Source: Hyphomonadaceae bacterium
GTDB lineage: Bacteria; Pseudomonadota; Alphaproteobacteria; Caulobacterales; Hyphomonadaceae
Reading direction: 5' to 3'
Assembly: GCA_947474455.1 (NCBI GenBank)
Contig: CANJIL010000029.1
Coordinates: 1 to 36,502, forward strand
Length of the DNA: 36,502 nt
Shown here one piece after another: positions 2,568-24,883 of the stretch; within the stretch, counting starts at the first letter, position 1, and every line of letters starts with the position of its first letter. The notes under the pieces were generated by a model, which was not told the DNA's origin, did not search any database, and saw only the letters and a list, made by a program, of their open reading frames with translations. A program made the translations under genes and the position numbers.

Positions 2568-3530
2568 TCAGCCCTTCGCCTTCAGCTCTTCGTAGATCAC
2601 CGTGACATAGGAATCCTCGTTGATGAAGCCGGTTGCGCCGCCGAAGCGCGCGGTCCACTGCTTCAGCGGCTTGGCCGCAAGCGTCTGCTCAATCGTCTTG
2701 CCTGCCTTCACCTGCGCTTCCACGGCGGCGCGCGCGCCCTTGTGCATGTCGAGCGCCGCCTGCAGGTCCGCCCGTGTTGCGAGTTCGCCATGGCCAGGGA
2801 TGATTTTGGTGTTCGGCCCCGCGATCGTCAGCATCTTTTCCAGCGCCGCGATGAAGCCGGCCTGTGTCCCACCCGAGCCGGTGTCGACATAAGGATAGCG
2901 ATCCTTCATGTAGGTGTCGCCCGTGTGAAGCACATCCGCCTCGACGAAGTAGACGAACGTGTCGCCGTCGGTATGCGCAGGCAGTGGCGCGCGCGTGGCG
3001 CGGATCGTCTGCCCGTTGAGATGGAAGTCGATGCCATCGACAAAGGTCACTACCGGATAGTCGGCTTTCGGCAGCGGCGCCGTCAGCGCCTGACGCCCGG
3101 TCGTCACCCTCTCGCCCGTGATCCGCTTGCGCACGTTGTCGCTGGCGAACACCGTAGCGCCCGCAGTCGCGAAGGCGCCGTTCCCGCCAGCATGATCGTA
3201 ATGCCAGTGCGTGTTGATGATGTATTTCGGCTTGCCCTTGGCGAACTCCTCGATCTTCGCGAGGTTGGCCGACCCATTCGTGACGAACTGGTCGTCGATC
3301 AGGAAAACCCCGTCCGCCCCGACACTGACGGCCATATTGCCGCCCGCCCCCATAAGCATCGAGATGCCCTGACCGAGGTCGATGACGCGGGAGAAGGCCA
3401 GCGTGTTGGCCGCCGGCGTCGCCCCGGCAGGGGGCGTCGCTGTCGGCGTTTGCGCCGCCGCCGTCGGTCCGGTTGCCGCGTAGGCCGACATTGCGAGCGC
3501 CGCAACTGCCGCCGAACGAAACATTCGCAT
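2568..3530 (-). CDS. Secreted MBL-fold metallo-hydrolase, copy 2
   Basis: A 320-aa paralogue of the next gene downstream. It has a cleavable signal peptide (MRMFRSAAVAALAMSAYAA), a Pro/Ala/Thr linker and an MBL domain with ligands HWHYDH, PAHTDGD, HTGD and IPGHGE. Long segments are shared with copy 1 (for example DGVFLIDDQF, IDFHLNGQTIRA, TDGDTFVYFVEADVLHTGD), so the pair is a tandem duplication. Unlike copy 1 there is no cysteine at the signal cleavage region, so this copy would be a soluble periplasmic protein while copy 1 may be lipidated. Start: ATG 3530 preceded by GGGGAAG; upstream in-frame codons have no signal-like character. Substrate unknown. Confidence 0.88.
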   Translation of the reverse strand: MRMFRSAAVAALAMSAYAATGPTAAAQTPTATPPAGATPAANTLAFSRVIDLGQGISMLMGAGGNMAVSVGADGVFLIDDQFVTNGSANLAKIEEFAKGKPKYIINTHWHYDHAGGNGAFATAGATVFASDNVRKRITGERVTTGRQALTAPLPKADYPVVTFVDGIDFHLNGQTIRATRAPLPAHTDGDTFVYFVEADVLHTGDTYMKDRYPYVDTGSGGTQAGFIAALEKMLTIAGPNTKIIPGHGELATRADLQAALDMHKGARAAVEAQVKAGKTIEQTLAAKPLKQWTARFGGATGFINEDSYVTVIYEELKAKG

Positions 3531-3651
3531 GCGCTTCCCCGTTTTGCAGAGCTTTTTTCGGACGCGCGACTGCAACGCCTGCTCTCGCGTCAGGGGAGCG
3601 CTCTTACCGCGCAACTTCAAGCGAAATCGTCGTGATCTACGCGGTGGTGCG

Positions 3652-4083
3652 TCAGCTCATTTCTTCGGCAACGCATCCCTCGCCCTCGAACCTCACGTCC
3701 TCAACCCGTCCGGCGCCCATAATGAAGCGGGTCGTGCAGGTCGAGCGATAGACCTGCGGCGGTTGCCACACCGGAAAGGTCTCCGAAATCGTCTCGGTCT
3801 TCTGCTTGCCGTCCTTGTCGGTAAGCGTGCGCTTAACCTCGCGGACTTCGTCGCGATAATAGCCCTCACGCTCGTCAACCGTTGTCTTGGTGTAGCTCCA
3901 CAGCTCGCGCCCGTCCGACATGTCGGTGCGGTTCTGCGGCGGACCCCAGCGGACGAGCACATCATCGGTCGACCGGCCCAGCTCCAGACTCATGTGCTGG
4001 CGATAACCTTCCTCGGTCGCACAGGCAGCGAGCGCCATGCCGGAAGCAGCAAGCATCACAAAGGCAAGCGTGCGGAAAGTCAT
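3652..4083 (-). CDS. Small lipoprotein, function unknown
   Basis: A 143-aa protein beginning MTFRTLAFVMLAASGMALAAC, a lipoprotein signal ending in the lipobox LAAC. The mature part contains ELGRSTDDVLVRWGPPQNRTDMSDGRELWSY, resembling the pattern in small outer-envelope lipoproteins of the SmpA/BamE-like superfamily (a G-pattern helix, then 'xWGPP....DG..LW.Y'). I do not assign BamE: the resemblance is structural and short. Two late cysteines (STCTTRF and GEGC) could form a disulphide. Start: ATG 4083, with GGGGAC upstream; a GTG at 4092 is also in frame. Minus-strand neighbours are also envelope proteins. Confidence 0.72.
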   Translation of the reverse strand: MTFRTLAFVMLAASGMALAACATEEGYRQHMSLELGRSTDDVLVRWGPPQNRTDMSDGRELWSYTKTTVDEREGYYRDEVREVKRTLTDKDGKQKTETISETFPVWQPPQVYRSTCTTRFIMGAGRVEDVRFEGEGCVAEEMS

Positions 4084-22428: not shown

Positions 22429-23091
22429 CTACGTCCTCTCGTCTGCGTCGTTTTCTGCGTCGAGGTCTTCACCCTCGTCATCGACCTCGACATCGTCGAA
22501 GTCCTCTTCGGCGTCAGCGGACACGACGTCCGCCTCCGCCTCTAAATCTTCCGCGTCCTCGTCTTCATCGACCGCAACTTCCGCCGCAGCCAGACCCTTG
22601 GCCCGCGCTTCCTGGATGAGTTTTTCCGTCAGCACGAGCGTCGCCTTGCTCATGTCGTCGACCGCGATTACGGCGCTTCCGCCATCCTTCAGAGCCAGCG
22701 CAACAACGCCATCGGTCTCGCCGTTGATCACGCCGTGGAAACGCTTGCGTCCCTCCGCGTTCGGCGACGACAGCTCGATCTTCACCTCATGTCCCGGCCA
22801 CTTCGCGAAATCGCCCCGGCGCGTCAGCGGACGGTCGATGCCGGGCGAGGAAACTTCAAGATTGTACTCACCGGCGATCGGATCTTCCGCCTCTATTACC
22901 GGCGATATTGCTCGGCTCAACCGGGCGCAACGCTCCACCGTCATCGTCCCGTCCGGCCGCTCCGCCATGATCTGCAGGGTCGGCGTCTGCGATCCGGTCA
23001 CCCGCACGCGCACGATATCGAGGCCGAGGCTCGCGGCCACGGGCTCGATCATGTCGAGAATGCGGATTTCCAGTTCGTTCTGCGCCCGCAT
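22429..23091 (-). CDS. rimP: Ribosome maturation factor RimP with long acidic tail
   Basis: A 220-aa protein. Residues 1-150 match RimP: ELEIRILDMIEPVAASLGLDIVRVRV, TVERCARLSRAISPVIEAEDPI, YNLEVSSPGIDRPLTRRGDFAKWPGHEVKIEL. RimP assists 30S assembly. The last ~50 residues are almost entirely Asp/Glu/Ala/Val (AVDEDEDAEDLEAEADVV ... DVEVDDEGEDLDAENDADE), an acidic extension absent from the usual 150-170-aa proteins. It heads the rimP-nusA-ylxR/L7Ae-infB operon. A promoter and hairpin are visible upstream. Start: ATG 23091. Confidence 0.95.
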   Translation of the reverse strand: MRAQNELEIRILDMIEPVAASLGLDIVRVRVTGSQTPTLQIMAERPDGTMTVERCARLSRAISPVIEAEDPIAGEYNLEVSSPGIDRPLTRRGDFAKWPGHEVKIELSSPNAEGRKRFHGVINGETDGVVALALKDGGSAVIAVDDMSKATLVLTEKLIQEARAKGLAAAEVAVDEDEDAEDLEAEADVVSADAEEDFDDVEVDDEGEDLDAENDADERT

Positions 23092-23140: not shown

Positions 23141-23174
23141 GAAGCGGCGGCCCAGTTCCCGGGGCCGCCGCTTC
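23141..23174 (-). promoter_or_regulatory. Strong leader hairpin before rimP
   Basis: GAAGCGGCGGCCC and its reverse complement form a perfect 13-bp stem closed by an 8-base loop. In the transcript (minus strand) it lies about 50 bases before the rimP ATG and about 18 bases downstream of the predicted start point of transcription. No U-tract follows at once; a T5 run appears about 16 bases later (CCCTGTTTTTGG). It may stabilise or control the nus operon leader; attenuation is only a possibility. Confidence 0.6.
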
Positions 23175-23293: not shown

Positions 23294-24232
23294 TCAGCCC
23301 GGCTGGTGCGCCAGCGCCGCGCGCAACACGTCCGGGTTGTAAAGAGACCCTGCCTGCCGCCTTTCAACCAGAGCCGCGGCCTGCACAAGCTGCCTGTCCG
23401 TCTCTGCAAAGATGCGTTCCTTCTCAGTCTTGCTATCGGTTTGCGTGATCCAGACTTCAATCGACCGGCTGGCGCTGACCAATGCTTCGCGCAGATCGAC
23501 CTGATCGCGCGATACGAACCTCTCATGCACCGCGCCTAGCCGCGCTGCTTCCCGCTCCCCATTGTCTTCGAGCAGGCTGGCGAGCCTCATGGCCTCGCGA
23601 GCTTCAGCAACATCGCCGCCCGCGCGCACCGCTGTCCGCGCCGAGGGATCGGCGCACTTCGACACATCCTGTGCATTCATGAAGCTGATCAGGGCATCAA
23701 ACACAAGCTTGGGCGGCTCCTGCCCATCGAACTCCTCGACGACTAGTCCATTAACCTTTATGCGAAATTCCGGACTCAACCGGTCGCGTATCTGCTTTCC
23801 GTCTTTCTTTGCGAGGTCGGGAATGGGCGCAGGATTGAACACACTATCACCCGGCACCTTCGACAGGAGGTTGGAGGTGACATCAGCCCTGCCCGGCGCA
23901 TCGGACAGACCTTCGAGGAAAAAGTCCGTATTGTCCCGGCCAGTTGGATGACACGATCAACAGGACAATCCCATACGTCCAGCCGCCCCGCCCAGCAGAG
24001 CCGGGCTTTCGAACGCCAGCCGCCCGATCTCATAGCGTTCGTGATTGCCAATCTTCGCGCACGCAGCGTCCGACGCCGCGCTTTCTTGCGCGTCAGCGCA
24101 ACCAACCGGCCGCGTGGTCAGCGCCTTCACCCTGTACGCGCCAGGCGCCAGCCACCGCAGCGCGCGAAGATCCCATGCCTTCGGCGCGTCATCCGCTTCC
24201 GGCGTGCTCACGCACGCGCTGATCACTTGCAC
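23294..24232 (-). pseudogene. c-type cytochrome-like gene with in-frame TGA inside CXXCH
   Basis: The frame runs 24232 to 23294 with a single TGA at 23959-23957. Upstream of TGA it ends ALLGGAAGRMGLSC; downstream it continues SCHPTGRDNTDFFLEGLSDAP. The codons TGT-TGA-TCG-TGT-CAT therefore spell C-stop-S-C-H, exactly where a CXXCH haem motif is expected, and the flanking GLSC..CHP.GR.N..F..GLSDAPG..D and EFDGQEPPKLVFDAL are typical cytochrome-c/peroxidase-like segments. Both sides keep coding character over 91 and 221 codons. The annotated start is GTG 24232; there is no hydrophobic signal, although ISAC fits a lipobox, so the N-terminus looks lost as well. The TetR gene ends only 24 bases upstream in the same frame. 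TGA is used as a normal stop elsewhere in the window (for example nepR). Likely decayed gene or a sequence error; readthrough/selenocysteine is unproven. Confidence 0.72.
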
Positions 24233-24256
24233 CGGTGTAAAGTGACGCCAACGGCA

Positions 24257-24883
24257 TTACGCCGGGGTCAGGGCCTTCAGAACACTCTCCACCAGCCGCC
24301 GCGAATAGACCTCTGGCACCGGTCCCCGCATGGCGATCAGCCTGTGCCAGACCGGCCCGAACAGAAGCTCGGTCGCAAGATCGATGTCCCAGTCACGCCG
24401 CACCACGCCCTTCAACGCCTGCTCCGCCAGGATGTGGCGCAAAGGGATCTTCACGCTCTCGGAAAACCAGCCGCGGAAGATTTCGCCCGCGTCGCTGTCG
24501 TCCGCCGCCGCGAGAAGCGCGCCGCGCCATGCATGGGCGCCATCGCCCGTGCGCACCGCCACCAGCATCGGTTCGATAAGGGCTGCGACCCTGTCACGAA
24601 TGTCGGCGTTGGTTGGAACAGATGCCGGTTTTTCCGCCAGGGTCGCCAATGCAGCGTCCACCGCGAGGCACGCTGCCGATTTCCACCAGCGATAGATCGT
24701 CTGCTTGGAGGCCTTGGCGTTCTTCGCAACCCGATCGACCGAGAACCCGCGCCAGCCATGCTCGGACAATTCAGTATAGGCCGCTACCAGCACGGCGTTG
24801 GTCGACGCCTCGCTGCGGCGCGGCCCAACGCGCCGCTTTTGGGCCTCTTCGGCGTCAGCAGGCGGAACATCGTCTTCAGCCAT
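24257..24883 (-). CDS. TetR/AcrR-family transcriptional regulator
   Basis: A 208-aa protein with an N-terminal HTH: AYTELSEHGWRGFSVDRVAKNAKASKQTIYRWWKSAACL (residues about 35-75). The TetR signature 'G...A..+vakrAGvsK.tlY+hw.sK..L' is clear in SVDRVAKNAKASKQTIYRWW. The C-terminal ligand domain (PTNADIRDRVAALIEPMLVAVRTGDGAH...) is unspecific. It lies divergently to the carbonic anhydrase and just upstream of the broken cytochrome-like gene. An inverted repeat in the intergenic region is a possible operator. Start: ATG 24883. Confidence 0.88.
   Translation of the reverse strand: MAEDDVPPADAEEAQKRRVGPRRSEASTNAVLVAAYTELSEHGWRGFSVDRVAKNAKASKQTIYRWWKSAACLAVDAALATLAEKPASVPTNADIRDRVAALIEPMLVAVRTGDGAHAWRGALLAAADDSDAGEIFRGWFSESVKIPLRHILAEQALKGVVRRDWDIDLATELLFGPVWHRLIAMRGPVPEVYSRRLVESVLKALTPA

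Follow-up and report, generated by a model that had tools for sequence, protein, structure and literature searches.

An in-frame TGA in a CXXCH haem motif of a Hyphomonadaceae bacterium most probably marks a recently formed pseudogene

Can a stop codon that falls inside a haem-binding motif belong to a working gene? The question is raised by a locus on the minus strand of a 36,502-nucleotide contig (the window) of a Hyphomonadaceae bacterium, one of the contigs of an assembly of 3.29 Mb in 103 contigs that is 99.94% complete. A first-pass annotation, made from the letters alone, had placed this stop between two coding segments of one frame and had proposed gene decay, a sequencing error, read-through or recoding as selenocysteine (Sec). 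Our analysis indicates, with a probability that we put at about 95%, that a gene for an exported CXXCH (c-type haem) lipoprotein has recently become a pseudogene here and that its TGA acts as an ordinary stop. As full accounts of the locus, we disfavour selenocysteine, read-through and sequencing error.

One gene interrupted by a single TGA

The sequence bears out the codons that had been reported. Positions 23962 to 23948 of the minus strand read TGT TGA TCG TGT CAT (C-stop-S-C-H), and the CXXCH haem motif at 23948-23962 is thus interrupted by the TGA at 23957-23959. Translation in one frame across the stop gives GRMGLSC-stop-SCHPTGRDN, with no indel at the TGA. The segments on the two sides share the frame, as had been claimed: 91 codons are open from a GTG at 24232 (5' half, minus strand, 23960-24232), and they are followed after the TGA by 220 codons and a terminal TGA, ending at 23294 (3' half, minus strand, 23294-23956). 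The remaining two frames at the locus are broken many times. Because each half separately aligns to the same orthologous gene (for example, side by side in locus L020, with 54% identity for the N-terminal half and 48% for the C-terminal half), the two flanks represent one gene and not a chance arrangement. The gene is single-copy in its own genome.

Two other readings were considered and rejected. Two adjacent genes in a shared frame do not account for the locus, as a single continuous gene spans both halves in relatives, and a reassigned code does not fit a window in which TGA terminates 10 of the 28 ORFs checked. The interrupted frame still has a gene-like composition by codon position: its GC3 is 0.70, and the 28 window ORFs span 0.69-0.87. 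In codon usage it scores 0.55, which is low within the 0.53-0.77 of the same ORFs.

The intact family and its residue at the TGA site

We looked for intact relatives using the downstream half as query. At E <= 0.001 there were matches in 16 of the 100 other genomes; one of these (L018) is a chance match, leaving 15 orthologues with 31-52% identity to the window gene. Scanning GTDB genomes with a sequence pattern yielded 60 named loci, 12 of them shared with the first set and counted once, for a total of 63 distinct orthologous loci (L018 and L019, the second stretch of the gene of L017, were left out of the counts). Their titles point to Hyphomonadaceae, Caulobacteraceae, Sphingomonadales, Parvularculaceae and Xanthomonadaceae, among others.

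In all 15 orthologues examined, a hydrophobic stretch occurs close to the start and a single CXXCH falls at the corresponding alignment position; several also carry a lipobox-like cysteine. An intact member of the family would be an exported CXXCH lipoprotein that presumably binds haem. Beyond these features, the family resembles little that is described. Neither half of the window gene matched Pfam at E up to 1, and NCBIfam gave for the two halves only one irrelevant match (E 0.22). No convincing match was found to Pfam in 16 family members or to NCBIfam in 29, and a PDB sequence search returned nothing significant (best E 0.36). A model predicted for L082 (with 28 other sequences, covering 29 of the 60 named loci) reached a mean pLDDT of 91.5 and ends in a C-terminal run of long helices; a fold search of the PDB with this model gave 0 significant matches at E <= 0.001. 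A literature search on tetratricopeptide, MauG-like and His-Xaa-Ser combinations found no paper.

Among described proteins, the family can be compared with the MauG/cytochrome c peroxidase group, to which similarity is very weak: PF03150 reaches E 0.07 in one of 16 members and TIGR03981 is matched in three of 29 (best E 0.005), and models of unrelated proteins reach similar scores in these searches. These matches suggest that the haem part of the family may be MauG-like. Proteins of the MauG di-haem family have two CXXCH motifs, whereas the present family has one; it also has a C-terminal helical part, and its predicted fold finds no significant counterpart among PDB structures.

We then asked which residue the relatives carry where the window has its TGA, the first X of CXXCH. 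The alignment to orthologues that the first-pass annotation had called for gave a standard and variable residue at all 63 distinct loci: Ala in 21, Glu in 18, Asn in seven, Ser in five, Asp in five, Gln in four, Gly in two and His in one. A TGA or a Cys occurs at this position in none of the 63. With these eight different sense residues among the loci, the position looks unconstrained in the alignment and does not look like a conserved Cys site at which Sec could replace cysteine. The motif itself is intact in 62 of the 63 loci.

Two members deserve a separate mention. In L128, a copy in a Henriciella MAG (match at 3001-3795), CAACQ replaces CXXCH, so that the haem histidine is lost with the frame still open; this may possibly be another decaying or repurposed copy. 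L093, on a contig titled Pseudanabaena biceps plasmid, bears a pair made of a tetratricopeptide (TPR) gene and the CXXCH gene that is otherwise found in Proteobacteria, and is probably a contaminating contig.

Loss of the start, the partner gene and internal codons

We also compared the rest of the locus with the intact family. Homology to the intact lipoproteins starts at about the lipobox (ISAC, codons 24223-24212), and the stop of an upstream TetR-family regulator gene (24257-24259) lies 33 bases ahead of it; the start and the signal peptide are therefore missing. This tetR gene (minus strand, 24257-24883; PF00440, PF16859) has an intact frame and served as a synteny anchor on one side of the junction (24224-24256). 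On the other side the anchor was the gene that we take to be rimP (minus strand, 22429-23091), also intact and the first of a presumed rimP-nusA-ylxR-infB series, names that we assigned from protein sequence and gene order. Ahead of the mature part, the peak 12-residue hydropathy is 1.40 in the window compared to 1.57-2.86 in the 15 orthologues, in agreement with the earlier remark that a signal peptide is missing.

The partner gene is missing as well. All 60 named loci have a TPR gene upstream of the haem gene and on its strand, by our estimate within 300 bases in 59 of them and at 336 in one. No TPR gene was found in the window, where residual TPR sequence gave nothing better than E 0.5, and in the whole genome the sole match at E <= 0.001 has 30% identity over 106 residues. 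One same-genus genome, G011, shows the order tetR, TPR gene, haem gene, with about 1.1 kb at the place that is reduced in the window to the 33-base junction; it is the only relative found in which tetR is the left neighbour of the pair.

The neighbourhood is variable across the genus. Strong tetR matches (78-90% identity) are present in 12 of the 14 other same-genus genomes. The tetR-rimP interval is empty in G009, G014 and G002, where the two genes are directly adjacent, and holds other genes in G012. In G010, G001, G006 and G005 tetR is followed by what is presumably trmB, and some 3 to 6 kb separate rimP from the pair of TPR and haem genes. The five same-genus holders of the haem gene are titled Hyphomonadaceae bacterium (four) and uncultured Alphaproteobacteria bacterium (one). 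The gene is missing from the other nine of the 14, three of which (G007, G012 and G003) are 73%, 77% and 94% complete, respectively. These absentees include the first and second genomes by tetR score (G012 and G003), and the third, G011, has the gene. In G012 the tetR-to-rimP stretch is on one contig and shows no trace of the haem gene. Absence from nine of 14 relatives therefore indicates that loss of the gene is tolerated and common in the clade.

Two further sequence elements were observed in this neighbourhood. A near-palindrome around TTTACACCGGTG at 24227-24241, directly behind the tetR stop, has a chance expectation of 0.02 in the window at up to one mismatch, and resembles a TetR operator. 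Upstream of rimP, at 23141-23174, there is a hairpin-like repeat rich in GC (GAAGCGGCGGCCC...GGGCCGCCGCTTC). Around 200 bases that include this repeat and extend into rimP are 80-90% identical in the same-genus genomes of L020, L022, L023, L024 and L071, and 68-74% identical in three more of the genus. The five Rfam matches of the neighbourhood were all under the gathering score, and the repeat itself matched at a sub-threshold level only.

The 3' half carries a lesion of its own. Between GEREAA and RLGAVHERF, nine codons are gone from a conserved helix in which none of the 15 orthologues has a gap; when the set was widened to 29 orthologues, 28 were gap-free there and one had a single gap. 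Conserved residues have changed too. Of the 29 columns invariant in the 15 orthologues, the window keeps 26, and it also keeps both haem cysteines and the histidine; in the other three, Y stands for D, P for R and F for Y. In the wider set only the Y is invariant (29/29), with D kept in 21 and R in 26 of the 29. At columns kept in at least 28 of these 29 orthologues the window changes three of 32 (A to G, T to R and Y to F); when the wider orthologues are left out in turn, 27 of the 29 differ at no more than two conserved columns, with a maximum of four of 35. At the near-invariant columns of the first set, the window differs at 5/36, the five same-genus orthologues at 1/37, 3/39 (L004), 0/36, 0/36 and 0/36, and distant ones at up to 12/45. 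Intact members, too, depart from the consensus at some of these columns, so the residue changes by themselves are suggestive and not conclusive, and it is the remaining lesions that bear the weight of the decay reading.

Compared to its intact orthologues, the locus shows several disabling changes, namely a truncated 5' end, an in-frame stop, an internal deletion and changed conserved residues. By sequence it is the same gene as the TPR-paired lipoproteins, with homology along the frame and, in G011, the same place behind tetR. It lacks, however, what its relatives have, that is, the sense codon that completes the motif (63 of 63 loci), the export signal (all 15 examined) and the upstream TPR gene (all 60). 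Gene decay, among the options proposed initially, is accordingly the best supported: the 5' end and the signal peptide have been deleted, the TPR partner has been lost, nine codons are gone and conserved residues have changed.

We propose that a deletion or rearrangement just behind tetR would have taken out the partner TPR gene together with the start and signal-peptide codons of the haem gene, and that the remaining frame would have gained, in any order, the TGA, the nine-codon deletion and the changes at conserved residues. The TGA would then work as an ordinary stop, and presumably no useful product would be made. Against decay stands a frame that, the TGA aside, runs open for 311 sense codons with most invariant residues kept. 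Together with the gene-like composition, these features suggest that the gene died recently or, with lower probability, that some function is left.

Could the TGA be an error of sequencing or assembly in a gene that is otherwise functional? The assembly is a draft in 103 contigs, and one wrong base is enough to create a stop; in this respect the option stands as it was first put. Correcting that base would not rescue the gene, however, as the missing start, signal peptide and TPR partner, the nine-codon deletion and the changed residues would all remain, and an exported haem protein would still not be expected. We consider this explanation very unlikely.

Similarly improbable is that leaky translation past the UGA by a near-cognate tRNA, or a restart downstream, yields a useful shortened or cytoplasmic protein. 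The 220 downstream codons are open, most invariant residues are kept, and a GTG at 23857 could begin a product of 187 residues. Against this, the stop is present in none of the 63 relatives, the conserved helix is shortened, and a restart at 23857 would leave out the CXXCH. In c-type cytochrome maturation, haem attachment needs export, so that a product lacking an export signal would not be expected to carry c-type haem.

Selenium genes and the selenocysteine reading

An attractive reading of the locus has Sec incorporated at the UGA, so that the haem motif would be Cys-Sec-Ser-Cys-His. It draws on the position of the TGA within a redox motif, on the presence of selD in the genome and on precedents. 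The method paper PMC1914089 describes a Geobacter c-type cytochrome as a selenoprotein candidate (GSU2937 + GSU2936), which resembles our locus in having an in-frame TGA in a CXXCH-bearing gene; there, the TGA recurs among relatives and five CXXCH motifs lie in the N-terminal part. The review PMC13188914 counts the multihaem cytochrome ExtKL among the selenoproteins. In the window, unlike in the Geobacter candidate, the TGA lies inside the motif, is found in no relative and is not accompanied by Sec machinery. We take GSU2937 + GSU2936 and ExtKL to be the same protein.

The search for selA, selB, selC and selD that the first-pass annotation had suggested found selD only. For selA there were zero matches in this 99.94% complete genome; the same search matched four of 14 control genomes including E. 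coli, one of them over the cut-off. For selB no match was over the cut-off and eight were below it, the best of them in a 398-residue frame, which has the size of EF-Tu and may encode it, and another being the window's own infB; in the controls, selB matches were found in all 14 genomes, two over the cut-off.

Matches to tRNA-Sec need more attention. With 150 of 486 candidates scored, the genome gave at least 11, two of them (51.3 and 47.4 bits) above the Rfam gathering score of 47, which speaks for the Sec reading. All 14 control genomes also matched, five over the cut-off. ARAGORN read eight of the 11 matches (three weaker ones were left out), and all eight are ordinary tRNAs: both above-threshold matches are tRNA-Ser, and the other six are tRNA-Leu, Ser, Gly, Leu, Trp and Tyr. 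Genes for tRNA-Sec nested in selB do occur in Alphaproteobacteria including Caulobacterales, as the review PMC9312934 describes; this precedent does not help here because no selB is over the cut-off.

The presence of selD (426 bits) has another explanation. On contig C77 of the same genome (L044), selD and a 2-selenouridine synthase gene (349 bits) are divergent neighbours, and the adjoining synthase gene accounts for selD. Considering this pair and the lack of Sec machinery, selenium in this bacterium most likely goes into tRNA and not into protein; the genome shows the selenouridine trait and no indication of the Sec trait.

We also asked whether the RNA around the stop folds distinctively. 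By general folding against shuffles, as distinct from a dedicated bSECIS model, the 60 and 100 nt from the UGA gave z-scores of -0.24 and -0.72 and a stretch across the UGA 0.55, so the RNA from the TGA onward folds no better than shuffled sequence. Relatives give no help to the Sec reading either. A conserved in-frame stop has been used as separator of read-through genes from pseudogenes (PMC1914089), and a Cys/Sec-pair criterion for selenoproteins is described in PMC13188914; over the 63 loci, our locus shows neither the recurring stop of the former nor the paired cysteine of the latter. Of the Sec machinery selD alone is present, Cys or TGA homologues number 0 of 63, and the product would have no export signal. 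With no selA, no selB over the cut-off, ordinary tRNAs, no distinctive hairpin and no TGA or Cys relative, the proposal of Sec recoding is left unsupported, and we regard it as vanishingly improbable, the least likely of the explanations considered.

A tRNA other than tRNA-Sec could in principle decode the TGA to useful effect, and the remnant would then serve in the cytoplasm as a regulator or binding protein, having given up haem and export. No suppressor tRNA with a UCA anticodon was seen among the nine tRNAs at the eight loci read, and we consider this extremely unlikely. If it were true, the TGA within the haem motif would be the sign of a new role and not of a death.

In conclusion, the tempting reading of selenocysteine in a haem motif turns out to be a clear negative, and the pseudogene that we favour carries a more general lesson: a TGA in a redox motif needs Cys or TGA relatives, a SECIS element and Sec genes before recoding is invoked. 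Moreover, the intact family behind this remnant, a TPR gene paired with a CXXCH-lipoprotein gene at every named locus, in Alphaproteobacteria and Xanthomonadaceae, would be a little-described redox pair of mild interest in its own right.
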